A stretch of 64,000 bases of DNA from Massilia sp. UMI-21 (GTDB taxonomy: Bacteria; Pseudomonadota; Gammaproteobacteria; Burkholderiales; Burkholderiaceae_D): NCBI GenBank assembly GCA_015277795.1, contig CP063848.1, positions 3,720,001 through 3,784,000 of the forward strand, written 5' to 3'. The translations under genes were made by a program, and so were the position numbers. The notes beneath the pieces were generated by a model, which saw only the letters and a program-made list of their open reading frames with translations, was not told where the DNA came from and did not search any database. Of the stretch, positions 18,889 through 24,375 are shown piece by piece (the stretch's first letter is position 1; every line of letters begins with the position of its first letter).

Positions 18889-18901
18889 TTGTCCTAGACA
18901 A
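18889..18901. promoter_or_regulatory. Upstream operator of the PYP operon (palindrome 1)
   Basis: TTGTCCTAGACAA, a 5-bp inverted repeat (TTGTC/GACAA) around CTA. An identical 13-bp copy lies at 18962-18974; the centres are 73 bp apart, close to seven helical turns. This copy lies 25 bp upstream of the -35 box. Its likely ligand is the MerR/B12 regulator encoded at the end of the operon. Confidence 0.7.
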
Positions 18902-18926
18902 TATCCCGAAAGCAAGCTTATTTCCA

Positions 18927-18956
18927 TTGCTATGTTTCCATACGGTAATGTATATT
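18927..18956 (+). promoter_or_regulatory. Sigma-70-type promoter of the PYP operon
   Basis: A -35 box TTGCTA (18927-18932) and a -10 box TATATT (18951-18956) are separated by 18 bp, in a locally AT-rich stretch unlike the surrounding DNA. The predicted start of transcription is near 18963, inside the second palindrome, giving a leader of about 45 nt. TGTATA at 18949-18954 overlaps the -10 box and resembles half of the site I recall for light-responsive LitR regulators; the other half is poor. Confidence 0.6.
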
Positions 18957-18961
18957 CTGTT

Positions 18962-18974
18962 TTGTCCTAGACAA
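18962..18974. promoter_or_regulatory. Start-site operator of the PYP operon (palindrome 2)
   Basis: A second exact copy of TTGTCCTAGACAA, covering the predicted +1 to +12. A protein bound here would block initiation; together with palindrome 1 it could form a repression loop around the promoter. Confidence 0.7.
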
Positions 18975-19007
18975 ACATCCGACAAACGAAACTACCTGAA
19001 GGGCAAC

Positions 19008-19394
19008 ATGAGTACCTTGAACGTCATCGCATTCGGAAAAGACGACATCGACAACAAGCTGACGAACATGTCGGCCAAGCAGATCGACGACCTGGCCTTT
19101 GGCGCCATCCAGCTCGACGCCGACGGCAAAATCTTGCGTTACAACGAAGCCGAAGCCCAGATCACCGGGCGCCAGGCCAGCGCAGTTATCGGAAAAAATT
19201 TCTTCCACGATGTCGCGCCGTGCACCAACACGCCGCGCTTCAAGGGCATCTTCGACGCCGGTGTGCGCACCAGCACCCTGAACACGATGTTCGAATACGT
19301 GTTCGACTACAAGATGAATCCGACCAAGGTCAAGATCCACATGAAGAAGGCCATCAGCGACGGCAGCTACTGGATCTTCGTCAAGCGCGTATAA
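19008..19394 (+). CDS. pyp: Photoactive yellow protein (PYP), PAS-fold blue-light receptor
   Basis: 128 residues, nearly collinear with Halorhodospira halophila PYP at an offset of +3. All photocycle residues are kept: Tyr45 and Glu49 (Tyr42, Glu46; hydrogen bonds to the chromophore phenolate), Thr53 (Thr50), Arg55 (Arg52) and the chromophore cysteine Cys72 in DVAPCTNTP (Cys69). [22 protein letters not shown] and the C-terminal SYWIFVKRV are diagnostic. PYP binds p-coumaric acid as a thioester and undergoes a blue-light photocycle. It is a stand-alone PAS domain with no output module, so a partner must read its state. The start has an AAGGG site 5 nt upstream. It is first in a four-gene operon that also supplies the chromophore. 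Confidence 0.97.
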
Positions 19395-19395
19395 G

Positions 19396-20637
19396 ATGCA
19401 CATGACCGACCTGCGCCTGGCGCCCTGGTGGACGCAACGTCCCGCGCTGCTGCGCTTCGTCGCCGACCTGCTGGCCGGCGAACTGGGCGCGCTGCGCCAC
19501 GATCCCGGCATTCGTCCCGGCGCATGGTCGGAAGCCCTGTCCCTGCAGCACGATCTCGGGCTTGACTCGCTCGAGTTCCTGCACGTCGCCGGCAGCCTGG
19601 CGGCGGCGCTGCAGATGCACCACAGCGGCATCGAAGACTACCTGCTGGCGCGCCGCAGCCTGGGCGACTGGGTCGACCTTGCCGGCGCCGCCCTCGCACA
19701 CCACGACGCCGAGATCCAGTTCAGCAGCTCGGGCAGCAGCGGCCAGCCGAAACGCTGCCTGCATGCCTTGCCCAGGCTGGAGCAGGAAGCGCAGGCGCTG
19801 GCGGCGCTGTTCCCGGGACGGCGCCGGCTGCTGGTGGCCGTTCCCAGCCACCACATCTACGGCTTCCTGTTTTCCCAGCTGCTGCCGCGCCATCTCGGCC
19901 TGGCGCCGGAGCAGGTGGTCTGCATCCGCGCCCGCCTGCCGTCGCAGCTGGCCCGGCACGCCGCGCCGGGCGACCTGGTGATCGGCCACCCGCTGTTCTG
20001 GGAGGCGGCAAGCGCCGCGGGCCAGGCCTTCGCGCCCGACGTGGTGGGCGTGAGTTCGACCGCGCCCTGCCCGGACGCCGTCGTCGCCGCCGTGACGCAC
20101 GCCGGACTGGCGGCCCTGTTCCAGGTCTACGGCAGTTCCGAAACCGGCGGCCTGGGCTGGCGCCGTGCGCATACCGACGACTACACCCTGCTGCCTTATC
20201 TGGCACGTGGCGCCGAAGGGGCCGCGCAGGACGATTCCGGGCGCAGCCTGCTGCGCACCCTGCCGGACGGCGCGCTGGAAGCGCTGCGGGCCCAGGACGC
20301 GCTGGACTGGCGTGGCGAACGCACATTCGCGGTCGGCCGGCGCTGCGACGGCGCGGTCCAGGTGGGCGGCGTCAACGTCTTCCCGGACCGGGTGCGCGAA
20401 GTCCTGCTCGCCCACCCGGGGGTGCTGGACGCCGCCGTGCGCCTCATGCGCCCGGACGAGGGCGTGCGCCTGAAGGCCTTCATCGTGCCGCGTCCGGGCC
20501 ATCCGGACTTGCTGCACAGCCTGCGCAACTGGATCGACACCCGCCTGCCGGCGCCGGAGCGCCCCAAGGCGCTGACCGTCGGCAGCCAACTGCCGCGCAC
20601 CGCCATGGGCAAGGCCGCCGACTGGAGCATCACATGA
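19396..20637 (+). CDS. AMP-forming aryl ligase with N-terminal carrier-like domain (PYP chromophore activation)
   Basis: 413 residues. Residues about 15-95 look like an acyl-carrier domain: HDLGLDSLEFL has the DSL phosphopantetheine motif with Ser58. The rest is an adenylating enzyme: P-loop SSGSSGQPK (111-119), aromatic/ATP motif YGSSETGG (245-252), GRRCDGAVQVGGVNVFPDR (315-332) and catalytic Lys406 in PRTAMGK. By operon context it activates p-coumarate (the pCL role) for attachment to PYP. The TGD motif before GRRCD is degenerate. The gene starts 1 nt after the pyp stop; ATG 19402 is an alternative. Its stop overlaps the lyase ATG by 4 nt. The carrier domain would allow an enzyme-bound coumaroyl thioester instead of, or besides, coumaroyl-CoA; that is inference. 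Confidence 0.85.
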   Translation: MHMTDLRLAPWWTQRPALLRFVADLLAGELGALRHDPGIRPGAWSEALSLQHDLGLDSLEFLHVAGSLAAALQMHHSGIEDYLLARRSLGDWVDLAGAALAHHDAEIQFSSSGSSGQPKRCLHALPRLEQEAQALAALFPGRRRLLVAVPSHHIYGFLFSQLLPRHLGLAPEQVVCIRARLPSQLARHAAPGDLVIGHPLFWEAASAAGQAFAPDVVGVSSTAPCPDAVVAAVTHAGLAALFQVYGSSETGGLGWRRAHTDDYTLLPYLARGAEGAAQDDSGRSLLRTLPDGALEALRAQDALDWRGERTFAVGRRCDGAVQVGGVNVFPDRVREVLLAHPGVLDAAVRLMRPDEGVRLKAFIVPRPGHPDLLHSLRNWIDTRLPAPERPKALTVGSQLPRTAMGKAADWSIT

Positions 20638-22250
20638 TCGACCAACACGTATCCTCGGACCCGCTGGTGGTGTTCGGCGCCGCCCAGGTAGCGCCCGACG
20701 AGGTGGTCGCGCTGGCGCGCGGCCACGCGCGCGCCGCCTTGTCGGAAGACGCCGCATTCGCCACCCGGATCGAGGCCGGCGCCGCGCTGCTGGACCGCAT
20801 CCTGGCCGAGGATGGCGTCATCTACGGCGTCACCACCGGCTACGGCGACTCCTGCGACACGGTGATTCCGCCCGAACTGGTCGCCGAGCTGCCGCATCGC
20901 CTGTTCACCTACCACGGCTGCGGCCTGGGCGCCAACTTCACGCGCGAGGAAACACGCGCGATCCTGGCGGTGCGCCTGGCTTCGCTGTGCCGCGGTTCCT
21001 CGGGCGTGAGCATGGGCCTGCTGCGCGCGCTGGCCGCACTGCTGCGGCACGACGTGCTGCCGGTGATTCCGTCCGAAGGCTCGGTCGGCGCCAGCGGCGA
21101 CCTGACCCCGCTGTCCTACGTGGCCGCGGTATTGTGCGGCGAACGCGAAGCCTGGCGGGGCGACGCCCAGGTGAGCGCGGCGAGCGCGCTCGACGCCGCC
21201 GGCCTGCAGCCGATCCGCCTGCGCCCCAAGGAAGGACTGGCCCTGATGAACGGCACCGCCGCGATGACCGGCCTGGCCTGCCTGGCCGCCGCCCGCGCCG
21301 AGGCCCTGTGCCGGCTGGCCAGCCGCATCACCGCGCTGTCGGCGGTGGCGCTCGGCAGCAATGGCTACCATTTCGACGCCACCCTGTTCGCGGCCAAGCC
21401 CTACCCCGGCATGGGCCAGGTGGCGGCCTGGATCGGCGCCGACCTCGGTTACCAGGCCGAGCAACAGGAGCGCAACAGCCCGCGCCTGCAGGACCGCTAC
21501 TCGATCCGCTGCGCGCCGCACGTGATCGGGGTGCTGGCCGATGCCCTGCCCTGGATGCGCAGCCACATCGCGCTCGAGCTCAACAGCGCCAACGACAATC
21601 CGCTGGTGGACGTCGCCTCCGGACGCGTGCTGCACGGCGGCCACTTCTACGGCGGCCACATGGCCTTCGCCATGGACGCCATGAAGAACGCGGTGGCCAA
21701 CATCGCCGACCTGCTCGACCGCCAGATGGCCCTGCTGGTGGACGCCCGCTACAACAACGGCCTGCCGCCCAACCTGCGCGGCGCCCAGGGTCCACGCGCC
21801 GCCATCAACCATGGCCTGAAGGCGCTGCAGATCAGCGTCTCGGCCTGGACCGCCGAAGCGCTCAAGCTGACCATGCCGGCCTCGGTGTTCTCGCGCTCGA
21901 CCGAGTGCCACAACCAGGACAAGGTCAGCATGGGCACGATCGCGGCGCGCGACTGCCTGCGCATCATCGCGCTCACCGAACAGGTGGCGGCCGCGCTCCT
22001 GATCGCGACCCGCCAGGCCTGCGCCCTGCGCCATCCGGAGGGCCCGCCCGCGCGCCTCGGGCCCGGCCTGCGCGGCGCGCTGCGCCGCCTGGACGAACTG
22101 GTGCCCTTCGTCGGCGAAGACCGGCGCCTCGACGGCGACCTGCACTGCCTGCTGGCGGCGATCCGCAGCCCGGACCCGGCATTGCTGCCTGCCATTGCCG
22201 AGAGCCCGGCCGGCAGCCCGGGGCCGGGCATGGCATCATGCGCGCCATGA
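20634..22250 (+). CDS. Aromatic amino acid ammonia-lyase, probable tyrosine ammonia-lyase for PYP chromophore
   Basis: 538 residues of the MIO-dependent HAL/PAL/TAL family. The prosthetic-group triad Ala153-Ser154-Gly155 is in GSVGASGDLTPLSYVA, the catalytic Tyr64 in IYGVTTGYGDSC, and STECHNQDKVSMG is the conserved C-terminal block. The selectivity pair aligning with His-Leu (TAL), Phe-Leu (PAL) or Ser-His (HutH) is Tyr93-His94 here, so specificity is not fully predicted. In this operon the expected reaction is L-tyrosine to p-coumarate plus ammonia. No hutU or hutI is nearby, which argues against histidine degradation. The start overlaps the ligase stop (ATGA) and the end overlaps the regulator start the same way. 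Confidence 0.88.
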   Translation: MIDQHVSSDPLVVFGAAQVAPDEVVALARGHARAALSEDAAFATRIEAGAALLDRILAEDGVIYGVTTGYGDSCDTVIPPELVAELPHRLFTYHGCGLGANFTREETRAILAVRLASLCRGSSGVSMGLLRALAALLRHDVLPVIPSEGSVGASGDLTPLSYVAAVLCGEREAWRGDAQVSAASALDAAGLQPIRLRPKEGLALMNGTAAMTGLACLAAARAEALCRLASRITALSAVALGSNGYHFDATLFAAKPYPGMGQVAAWIGADLGYQAEQQERNSPRLQDRYSIRCAPHVIGVLADALPWMRSHIALELNSANDNPLVDVASGRVLHGGHFYGGHMAFAMDAMKNAVANIADLLDRQMALLVDARYNNGLPPNLRGAQGPRAAINHGLKALQISVSAWTAEALKLTMPASVFSRSTECHNQDKVSMGTIAARDCLRIIALTEQVAAALLIATRQACALRHPEGPPARLGPGLRGALRRLDELVPFVGEDRRLDGDLHCLLAAIRSPDPALLPAIAESPAGSPGPGMASCAP

Positions 22251-23191
22251 CAGGGGCGACCCTCGGCATCTCCGCCGTCGAGCGCGAAACCAGGCTCTCC
22301 AAGGACGTGCTGCGCGCCTGGGAAAAGCGCTACGGTTTCCCCACGCCGATGCGGGATGTGCACGGCGAGCGCTGCTATCCGGTCGAGCAGGTCGAGCGCC
22401 TGCGCCTGATGAAGCGCCTGATGGACCAGGGCCTGCGTCCCGGGCGCCTGGCGCAGATGTCCGCGACGCAGCTGGCCGAGCTGGCGCAGCGCCCCGCCGC
22501 CGAAGCCACGCAAGCCGCCGCGGCGGACGGCGGCGCGCACGAACTCATCGACAGCCTGCTGGCCATGGTGGCGCAGGACCCGGCCGCGCTGCGCACCGCC
22601 TTGCGCCAGCACCTCGCCCGCCTGGGCCTCGAACGCTTCGTCGAGCAGGTCGCGGCCCCGCTCACCGCCGCCGTCGGCGCGCGCTGGGAGGACGGCAGTT
22701 TCGACATCTTCGACGAACATCTCTACACCGAGGCCACGACCCGCATCCTGCGCCAGGCACTGGGCAACCTGCCCGAGACCGGCCAGGCGCCGCGCATCCT
22801 CCTGACCACCCTGCCGGGCGAAGCGCACGGGCTGGGCTTGACCATGATCGAAGCGCTGCTGGCGCTGGACGGCGCGAACTGCGTCGCCCTGGGCACCGAG
22901 ACGCCGCCGGCGAGCATCGCCCGTGCGGCGCACAGCCACCGGGCCGACATCGTGGCCCTGTCGTTTTCCGCGGCCTACCCGCGCCGCCAGACCGCCGCAT
23001 CCCTGCAGCAGCTGCGCCAGCTACTGCCCGACACGGTGGCGCTCTGGGCCGGCGGCGCCGGCGTGGCGGCACTGGCCGCCGTCGACGGCGTGCGCCTGCT
23101 GCCCACGCTGGACAGCGGGCGGCAGGCCCTGGCCGGGTGGCGCGCCGGCGAGCGCGCCGGTGGTGTCACGGCGGATCCGGTCCTGCGGTAG
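22247..23191 (+). CDS. MerR-family regulator with B12-binding domain (CarH/LitR-like photoreceptor)
   Basis: 314 residues. An N-terminal MerR helix-turn-helix (6-75: ISAVERETRLSKDVLRAWEKRYGFP) is followed by a helical B12-cap domain (about 97-175) and a cobalamin Rossmann domain (about 182-300). The cap has W147-x9-EH (Glu157, His158), and the B12 loop has Glu192-x-His194-x-x-Gly197, both signatures of CarH/LitR proteins that bind adenosylcobalamin and release DNA when light breaks the Co-C bond. The residue after Trp147 is Glu, not the His of Thermus CarH that forms the light-state bis-His link. The start ATG overlaps the lyase stop by 4 nt; ATG 22238 is an alternative. It probably represses its own operon at the twin palindromes. 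Confidence 0.9.
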   Translation: MTGATLGISAVERETRLSKDVLRAWEKRYGFPTPMRDVHGERCYPVEQVERLRLMKRLMDQGLRPGRLAQMSATQLAELAQRPAAEATQAAAADGGAHELIDSLLAMVAQDPAALRTALRQHLARLGLERFVEQVAAPLTAAVGARWEDGSFDIFDEHLYTEATTRILRQALGNLPETGQAPRILLTTLPGEAHGLGLTMIEALLALDGANCVALGTETPPASIARAAHSHRADIVALSFSAAYPRRQTAASLQQLRQLLPDTVALWAGGAGVAALAAVDGVRLLPTLDSGRQALAGWRAGERAGGVTADPVLR

Positions 23192-23232
23192 AATAAATTG
23201 CATTCAAACACCGCGAAGCAAGGGGTCAGAAC

Positions 23233-24375
23233 ATGATGATGGAACGCTTGTTCCAGTTGATGAAGGAAAAGAACGCCTCCGACATGTTCTTCGCGGCGAA
23301 TTCTCCCGTCCATATCAAGATCAACGGCAACCTCATCCCGATCAACCAGAACAAGCTGGAACCGGAAAACATCCGCGTCCTGCTGTCCGAGATCGCCTCC
23401 CCCGAGCAGATGCTCGGGCTGGAGCGCGACAACGAGCTGAACATGGGTGTCTCGGTGCCGAACCTCGGGCGCTTCCGCCTGTCGGCCTTCCGCCAGCGCG
23501 GTTCGATCTCGGCGGTGTTCCGCTTCGTGCCGGCGAACATCCCGCCGATCGGCGAACTGGGCCTGCCTCCGGTGCTATCCGAGCTGATCATGGAAAAGCG
23601 CGGCCTGCTGCTGATCGTGGGCGCCACCGGCTCCGGCAAGTCGACCACCATCGCCTCGATGCTGGACCACCGCAACGACACCCGCACCGGCCACATCCTG
23701 ACGCTGGAAGACCCGATCGAGTACCTGTTCAAGAACAAGAAGTCGATCGTCAACCAGCGCGAGATCGGCAGCGACGCCACCGATTTTGCCACCGCGCTGC
23801 GCAATTCGATGCGCCAGGCGCCCGACTGCATCCTGATCGGCGAGATCCGCGACAAGGAGACCATGGCGGCGGCGCTGGCGTATGCGCAATCCGGCCACCT
23901 GGTGCTGGCCACCCTGCACGCCAACAACAGCTACAACGCGCTGAACCGCATCATCAGCTTCTACCCGATCGAGAACCGCGCCGCCCTGCTGCAGGACCTG
24001 GCATCGAGCGTGAAGGCGATCGTCTCGCAGCGCCTGGTCAAGTCCGCCGCCGGCGGCCAGCGCCAGGCCGCGGTCGAGGTGATGCTGAACACCCGCTACA
24101 TCGCCGACCTGATCGAAAAAGGCGAGATCGGCCAGATCAAGGACGCCATGGACAAGAGCCTGTCGCCGGGTTCGCAATCGTTTGAAACCGCCCTGCTCAA
24201 GCTGGTCAAGGACGGCCTGGTGACGCAGGACGAAGCACTCGCGAATGCCGACTCGGCCACCAACCTGCTCTGGCTGCTCAACAATGGGCCGGACAGCCAG
24301 GTGCAGGCGGAAGAGGAGCAGAAGAAACCGGACGCCCAGGGCGCGTCGTTTACCGAATTCTCGCTCGATCCCTGA
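23233..24375 (+). CDS. pilU: Type IV pilus retraction ATPase PilU
   Basis: 380 residues of the PilT/PilU hexameric ATPases. Walker A is GATGSGKST (130-138); the Asp box is LTLEDPIEYLF, the Walker B region DCILIGEIRD and the His box GHLVLATLHANN. The longer C-terminal tail and the start MMMERLFQLMKEKNASDMFF are PilU-like rather than PilT-like. PilU works with PilT to retract pili for twitching and DNA uptake. Three in-frame ATGs occur; AGGGG at 23221-23225 supports the first. It lies 41 bp after the B12 regulator with no terminator between; a weak TAGAAT (23189-23194) may give it its own promoter. Confidence 0.92.
   Translation: MMMERLFQLMKEKNASDMFFAANSPVHIKINGNLIPINQNKLEPENIRVLLSEIASPEQMLGLERDNELNMGVSVPNLGRFRLSAFRQRGSISAVFRFVPANIPPIGELGLPPVLSELIMEKRGLLLIVGATGSGKSTTIASMLDHRNDTRTGHILTLEDPIEYLFKNKKSIVNQREIGSDATDFATALRNSMRQAPDCILIGEIRDKETMAAALAYAQSGHLVLATLHANNSYNALNRIISFYPIENRAALLQDLASSVKAIVSQRLVKSAAGGQRQAAVEVMLNTRYIADLIEKGEIGQIKDAMDKSLSPGSQSFETALLKLVKDGLVTQDEALANADSATNLLWLLNNGPDSQVQAEEEQKKPDAQGASFTEFSLDP

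Follow-up and report, generated by a model that had tools for sequence, protein, structure and literature searches.

The chromosome of Massilia sp. UMI-21 carries, within the 64,000-nucleotide (nt) stretch analysed here (the window; positions 3,720,001 to 3,784,000 of contig CP063848.1, assembly GCA_015277795.1), a photoactive yellow protein (PYP) operon in which the gene for the photoreceptor and two genes predicted to make and attach its chromophore are followed by a fourth, coding for a regulator of the MerR family with cobalamin (B12)-binding domains. We consider it probable that this regulator binds two palindromes at the promoter of its own operon, repressing it in the dark in an adenosylcobalamin-dependent manner and releasing it in the light, such that one photoreceptor would decide whether another is made. 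The parts are each known; the novelty is a photoreceptor operon that has captured a B12 regulator and carries paired palindromes.

A four-gene unit and its conservation

The four genes lie head to tail on the forward strand (window coordinates are used throughout): the PYP gene at 19008..19394 (+), encoding 128 amino acids with the chromophore-binding Cys72 (Cys69 in H. halophila numbering), the chromophore ligase gene at 19396..20637 (+), the aromatic amino acid ammonia-lyase gene at 20634..22250 (+) and the CarH/LitR-like regulator gene at 22247..23191 (+). The intergenic gaps are +1, -4 and -4 nt, with the ATG of the lyase gene (20634) and that of the regulator gene (22247; an alternative ATG lies at 22238) each overlapping the preceding stop codon in an ATGA. 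An earlier note, made from the letters of this DNA, had described four tightly packed genes with these gaps, which the coordinates bear out; its start at 18889 coincides with the first palindrome copy. As the order PYP-ligase-lyase-MerR is also found in other species, it represents more than chance.

Of 149 genomes of relatives scanned, 12 encode a PYP of this type over the cut-off, eight of them from Massilia and four from other genera of the family. The MerR-B12 gene follows PYP-ligase(-lyase) in all eight Massilia loci and in none of the four others; a full-length MerR-B12 gene is nevertheless present in all 12 genomes, located elsewhere in the genome in those four. Further, full-length MerR-B12 genes occur in seven of seven genomes of the genus with this PYP as opposed to 7 of the 31 without it (n = 38; Fisher p 2.7e-4, uncorrected for kinship). 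In a tree of 30 rows, 12 of whose 27 inner branches are weak, the eight regulators of the PYP operons group as one clade (support 98/94). The Massilia units are found at two chromosomal places, four between dapD and pilU and four beside one other common gene, which we take to be gluQ. Given that dapD and pilU are directly adjacent in 20/20 other genomes of the genus tested, of which four (G024, G033, G034, G055) carry the operon at the other place, insertion of the operon between these two genes appears likely. A chance arrangement was considered and ruled out by this recurrence in eight of eight Massilia loci at two chromosomal places.

A second set comprised the best 80 of 158 named PYP loci, with up to 7 kb of flank per side (some contigs being shorter); six of the eight Massilia units occur in both sets. 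Here the MerR-B12 gene stands beside PYP in the six Massilia loci and was not found, within these flanks, in the other 74 of the 80. A B12 regulator as a general rule at PYP loci is thereby ruled out, and, as judged from the comparison of loci, it is a lineage-specific addition to the PYP unit. The MerR-B12 neighbour that the earlier note had thought worth seeking at the PYP loci of relatives is accordingly a feature of Massilia (8/8), but was not seen in the other genera of the family (0/4) or in the flanks of the other named loci (0/74). Its proposal that the regulator controls the operon is strengthened by this conservation within one clade, together with a conserved palindrome at the PYP promoter.

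The palindrome and the regulators that may read it

Two identical 13-base-pair (bp) palindromes, TTGTCCTAGACAA, lie upstream of PYP and are the predicted operators: a distal copy at 18889..18901 and a proximal copy, 73 nt from it, at 18962..18974 (neither is assigned a strand). The 5.3 Mb genome has no strict TTGTCNNNGACAA site other than these two. Between them lies a predicted sigma-70 promoter, TTGCTA-18 nt-TATATT, at 18927..18956 (+), the single prediction found as against a mean of 0.1 in shuffles. The proximal palindrome starts 5 nt after the predicted -10 element, and each of the other seven Massilia loci has a similar TATA-type element about as far ahead of its proximal palindrome; this location just past the -10 element is suited to repression.

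The link between palindrome and regulator emerges from a blind analysis that made no use of PYP, in which inverted repeats with 5-nt arms and a spacer of 0-12 were sought upstream of 22 stand-alone MerR-B12 genes. The top-ranked repeat was TTGTC-N3-GACAA, i.e., the same TTGTCNNNGACAA pattern, present strictly at 12 of the 22 genes with 0.03 expected; the next-ranked was a wider frame, TTTGT-N5-ACAAA, at 8/22. On allowing one mismatch the palindrome is seen at 15/22 (0.13 expected). The background in these stand-alone loci amounts to two strict sites in 280,782 bp, and eight with one mismatch.

On the PYP side, every one of the 12 promoters of this PYP type has the palindrome within 300 bp, ten of them strictly and the others with one mismatch, and a second copy is present at 8/8 Massilia PYP promoters, with one mismatch in three of them. 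A common test for a strict 8-base site (TGTCNNNGACA within 250 bp) finds it at 11/12 promoters of this PYP as opposed to one of the ten tested loci of a divergent second PYP, and at none of five ligase partners of the latter. A site stands within 250 bp upstream of 27 of the 387 genes called in these loci; grouped by hand, these are nine PYP genes, five regulators, one lyase beside PYP, 11 genes divergent from PYP or the regulator and one other gene. In the named set the site stands upstream of PYP in 14 of the 80 loci: Massilia 6/6, Noviherbaspirillum 5/6, Glaciimonas 2/2, Pusillimonas 1/1 and all others 0/65. The site at the PYP promoter is hence more widespread than the regulator as a neighbour, a pattern which would fit control in trans first and capture of the regulator later.

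All eight Massilia PYP promoters offer a pair of sites, the second lying 51 to 110 bp upstream of the proximal one. When PYP and stand-alone loci are taken together, 14 of the 15 pairs spaced by less than 100 bp (51-84 bp) fall within 0.14 turn of whole 10.5-bp turns, with R 0.83 at 10.5 bp, a value reached in 1 of 50,000 random sets. The seven strict-strict pairs by themselves give R 0.89 (63 of 50,000) and the seven pairs of stand-alone regulators R 0.81 (259 of 50,000). The locus L148 was excluded from this set as coming from the same genome as L031, and a 139-bp pair of L100, lying outside the 25-130 bp filter, is included only in the figure for all 18 pairs given below. Placement of both sites on the same face suggests that one oligomer could bridge them; two CarH proteins and CtMerR are described as tetramers in the dark state and the Cystobacter CarH as a dimer (PMC9304148, PMC11796333).

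Strict sites elsewhere in the genomes of relatives were followed up at 17 places, chosen by core sequence among the sites listed, and the only one of these that recurs is between two sensor-type genes in three genomes. There the palindrome separates a GAF-PAS protein gene from a hybrid histidine kinase gene (L105 2007, L108 1980, L110 1951 and 2376), and all three genomes carry the operon; both L105 genes and the L110 kinase were assigned with Pfam, and L108 by likeness of the gene starts. In Noviherbaspirillum humi (L121 1952) a strict palindrome stands ~140 bp before a MerR gene in whose product no B12 domain was found. Additionally, a member of the genus without this PYP (G030) has BLUF genes within ~1 kb of strict palindromes (L115 1558-1926, L117 702-1130). 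A regulon read from sites with two mismatches was dropped, there being 149 of these in the genome of Massilia sp. UMI-21 and 214 for the reversed-pattern control.

The regulator and its light signature

The regulator contains the MerR_1 (PF13411), B12-binding_2 (PF02607) and B12-binding (PF02310) domains, all over cut-off, and among solved structures it best matches CarH (5c8d) and 3whp, an entry that was deposited under the name of a probable transcriptional regulator. It falls short of the CarH equivalog NF052513 (106.7 vs 400 bits), and is therefore labelled CarH/LitR-like. The light signature described for such regulators, GxxW, EH, GxxH and GxxxP (PMC11796333), is complete in 8/8 regulators of the PYP operons, and its core residues W, E, H and H are kept in 20 of the 22 stand-alone ones. 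With both of its B12 domains the window regulator fits class I LitR, defined as the class possessing both (PMC9758184). The CarH/LitR cobalamin motifs of which the earlier note spoke can hence be upheld as regards the domains and the signature, but not as regards the score on CarH or the histidine discussed below. We infer from its sequence that the regulator depends on light and on B12. The genome encodes two corrinoid adenosyltransferase families and has three matches to the regulator, the other two lacking the EH motif.

Proposed mechanism and its alternatives

In the mechanism that we favour, the lyase would make p-coumarate, which the ligase would adenylate and pass to the PYP cysteine, possibly by way of a phosphopantetheine arm that its carrier domain would bear. 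In the dark, an oligomer of the regulator with adenosylcobalamin would bridge both palindromes on one face of the helix and cover the promoter start, bridging being probably the mode of repression. Green or near-UV light would break the cobalt-carbon bond and the complex would fall apart, upon which PYP, the enzymes for its chromophore and more regulator would be made. As for its origin, the regulator would descend from one that acted in trans, probably in light stress, and that was captured in Massilia into an operon already under its control.

A number of observations weigh against this reading. The alignment of regulators shows that CarH His132 is absent in all 30 sequences, with Glu at this position in six of the eight from PYP operons. 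In TtCarH this residue is the upper ligand in the light state and drives the ligand switch, and its H132A version is mostly tetrameric in the light (PMC10442372). However, other light-responsive proteins are variable at this position too, and CtMerR, with Arg there, still drops from tetramer to monomer (PMC11796333). The complete signature, the absence of His132 and the behaviour of CtMerR taken together make it likely that this regulator is controlled by light through a route other than bis-His ligation. Further, the known CarH operators are tandem 11-bp direct repeats with the consensus letters T and ACA (PMC9304148); no such tandem repeat was found at the PYP promoter, palindromes being present instead, although their half-site GGACAA keeps the ACA of the CarH operators. 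For seven of the 22 stand-alone regulator genes, the 200 bp searched contain no site, not even when one mismatch is allowed. The strict pattern occurs twice in the genome of Massilia sp. UMI-21 versus five times for the reversed-pattern control, and in several relatives strict counts, among the sites listed, are near or below those of the control. Since the counts are no higher than in the control, the case rests on the position of the palindrome and not on its number.

The phasing likewise has its exceptions. The three wider pairs, at 110, 120 and 139 bp, are out of phase, and with them included all 18 pairs give R 0.58 (84 of 50,000 random sets); PYP promoters by themselves provide nine pairs with R 0.67 (683 of 50,000). 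The best period is not fixed by the pairs, with R 0.68 at 10.0 and 0.72 at 11.0, the 100-bp cut was chosen after seeing the data, and several of the species are close kin.

The loss of His132 leaves a direct B12 switch uncertain, and this gives some room to a different arrangement, in which PYP, once excited by light, would bind the MerR protein and relieve repression, with B12 as a structural element or a second input. A precedent exists in the class II LitR PmlR2, which is kept off DNA in blue light by a neighbouring short LOV protein (PMC9758184), and PYP and regulator stand in one tight gene set, captured as a pair. However, class II LitRs keep one of the two B12 domains (PMC9758184) while the window regulator keeps both along with all signature residues, the four other genera have the site at the PYP promoter and the regulator gene elsewhere, and some genomes that lack this PYP type have stand-alone regulators of the same kind; we regard such a switch by PYP as unlikely. 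The absence of His132 from all 30 aligned sequences, photolysis being here a prediction, would equally accommodate a regulator that senses cobalamin supply or redox state instead of light, making the operon a B12-status response. This we hold to be rather improbable: the four-part light signature is complete in 8/8, and the two loci covered by a scan of the neighbours of stand-alone regulators have amine oxidase, DUF1365 and cyclopropane-synthase genes (L083 and L100), joined in L083 by folE2, while folE and ufaM of P. putida are light-induced via LitR-type regulators (PMC9758184, PMC8508746).

Stand-alone copies have other neighbours, and three of the genomes with the operon carry the palindrome between a pair of sensor-type genes as well; this could be taken to mean that the regulator is a passenger which acts on unlinked genes, its place at the end of the operon being incidental. 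To this we give scarcely any credence, in view of the 8/8 conservation at two chromosomal places and of the presence at the PYP promoter of two copies of the relatives' palindrome, this genome having no further strict site. Dark repression by the B12-bound regulator with release in the light, as set out above, could also be part of a ring: the B12 receptor would close the PYP promoter in the dark via two phased palindromes, photolysis would license PYP, and excited PYP would then bind this regulator and keep it off, so that green light opens and blue light holds, with the chromophore handed over from the carrier arm of the ligase. For this extended scheme as a whole we see a slim chance.

The chromophore genes and PYP

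The PYP itself scores 189.6 bits on TIGR02373, over the curated cut-off of 143.05, and keeps Y42, E46, T50, R52, C69 and M100 (H. halophila numbering), which we take to be the key residues, i.e., the chromophore Cys69, the pocket residues Tyr42, Glu46, Thr50 and Arg52, and M100. A second, divergent PYP is encoded near 2.62 Mb of the same genome (L042 6002-11049) together with a divergent carrier-domain ligase; the two downstream proteins at this locus are of the GGDEF and GGDEF-EAL types, and its promoter has no palindrome.

The ligase has as its best family by far the PYP-activating 4-coumarate ligase TIGR02372, with 330.8 bits, yet 3.9 bits under the cut-off (334.7). Its first 100 residues (window 19396-19705) are unnamed by Pfam. 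Both PYP ligases of the genome make a weak contact with PF00550 at an LGLDSLE stretch (12.6 and 16.6 bits), the 12.6 bits of the window ligase N-terminus staying below the cut-off of 20.8, and PF00550 matches 7 of 16 relative ligases (E up to 10; best 0.00095). The predicted structure of the N-terminal domain (~residues 10-103; pLDDT 88.4) matches acyl carrier proteins and has their four-helix fold, with an Asp-Ser-Leu attachment motif at the start of helix 2, which begins at residue 58. This Ser58 is kept in 16/16 and in 76 of 77 PYP-neighbour ligases of named genomes, mostly Proteobacteria, the one exception having a gap there, in a short frame; Lys406, presumably catalytic, is kept in 75/77, three of the 80 named loci without a ligase match being left uncounted. 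An hhalign comparison of the N-terminus with eight peptidyl carrier domains from peptide-synthetase frames of the same genome was negative (probability 2.8, with shallow profiles), which speaks against a carrier domain. Because of the fold, the motif and the weak PF00550 matches we retain this assignment, and the gene called an aryl ligase in the earlier note, while indeed that of an AMP-forming ligase, is by predicted fold and motif more exactly that of a carrier-domain/ligase fusion. We infer that PYP ligases load the chromophore on a phosphopantetheine arm of their own, or once did; CoA is described as the acceptor in PYP chromophore ligation (PMC12826048).

The lyase belongs to PF00221 (514.6 bits) and has the MIO motif Ala-Ser-Gly of aromatic lyases at residues 153-155. 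The selectivity pair His-Leu of the R. sphaeroides tyrosine ammonia-lyase (TAL) is not found in the window lyase, in which Tyr-His aligns there at residues 93-94; FlxA is described as using tyrosine despite a pair like that of histidine ammonia-lyase (PMC3992019). By a rule for the second motif from the same article, the place of the motif in the window lyase being our assignment, it has Gln in place of the histidine-lyase Glu, and its NQD from residue 427 aligns with the NQD of the R. sphaeroides enzyme. As the first motif is unlike that of tyrosine lyases and the second fits, the substrate is assigned tentatively.

The lyase varies among the eight Massilia units, in all of which the ligase and the regulator are kept. 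The window and L033 have it complete and L041 lacks a short stretch of it; in L036 and L040 it is decayed, with no MIO motif, and in the remaining three of the eight units (L032, L034, L039) none was found. The relics in L036 (6358-7704) and L040 (6173-7435) still have open frames, having lost other stretches in addition to the MIO motif. The description of the unit as self-contained thus suits some of the units, but does not extend to those in which no lyase was found or in which it has decayed; these would depend on p-coumarate taken up from their surroundings or made by a different enzyme.

Directly downstream of the regulator gene, and outside the main claim, lies the gene of a PilU-like ATPase (PF00437) at 23233..24375 (+), which we presume to be pilU. 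A gap of 42 nt (window 23191-23233) separates the two genes, and neither promoter nor terminator was found in it, such that pilU may be read through from the operon promoter. A role for pilU as a light-controlled fifth gene was set aside, only four of the eight units lying there.

Comparison with known systems

With a promoter, two likely operators and a likely regulator named, experiments can now ask directly whether one photoreceptor controls the production of another. The palindrome pair could serve as a compact B12 light switch, possibly one that works by looping, and the carrier domain in the ligase is relevant to the way in which PYP acquires its chromophore. The latest survey (PMC12826048), which dates from 2025 and covers 984 PYPs and 113 operons, describes the signal partners of PYP as an important gap; it lists p-coumaryl ligase (pCL), TAL, GGDEF/EAL, kinases and BLUF; the terms MerR, B12 and cobalamin do not occur in its main text, supplements aside. 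The literature searched on PYP with MerR, B12, LitR, cobalamin or Massilia, a scope that leaves subscription papers and supplements aside, mentions PYP and B12 receptors apart and yielded no description of their pairing, in agreement with the suspicion of the earlier note that the B12 regulator was not known as part of a PYP unit. The palindrome itself may already have been published for the class III LitR of Burkholderia multivorans.

The closest relative of the unit is the pyp operon of H. halophila, which has the same first three genes in the same order, PYP, p-coumaryl ligase and tyrosine ammonia-lyase; no MerR-B12 gene is described for it in the available text (PMC12826048), and the window unit adds this fourth gene along with the likely operators. 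Two photoreceptor types in one predicted operon are also seen in Caballeronia sp. SBC2, where pyp operons contain BLUF genes, but there both receptors respond to blue light and no B12 regulator is named (PMC12826048). In PmlR2/PmSB-LOV of Pseudomonas mendocina a LitR-type regulator likewise stands beside a blue-light photoreceptor, whereas PmlR2 is thought not to bind adenosylcobalamin, its site is TGTACA-N12-TGTACA, and its partner is a LOV protein without chromophore genes (PMC9758184).

The wider family already has an example of paired inverted repeats: CarA of Myxococcus xanthus is reported to bind two of them, at a single promoter, cooperatively as two dimers; unlike the window regulator, it works without B12 and controls carotenoid genes, and sites, spacing and target all differ (PMC9304148). 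CarH and the class I LitR proteins share with the window regulator the MerR head, the B12-binding_2 and B12-binding domains and the GxxW/EH/GxxH/GxxxP signature. The latter differs from them in being without His132 and in its palindromes, mostly near whole turns apart, in lieu of 11-bp direct repeats; and while their targets are carotenoid genes, its likely target is another photoreceptor.

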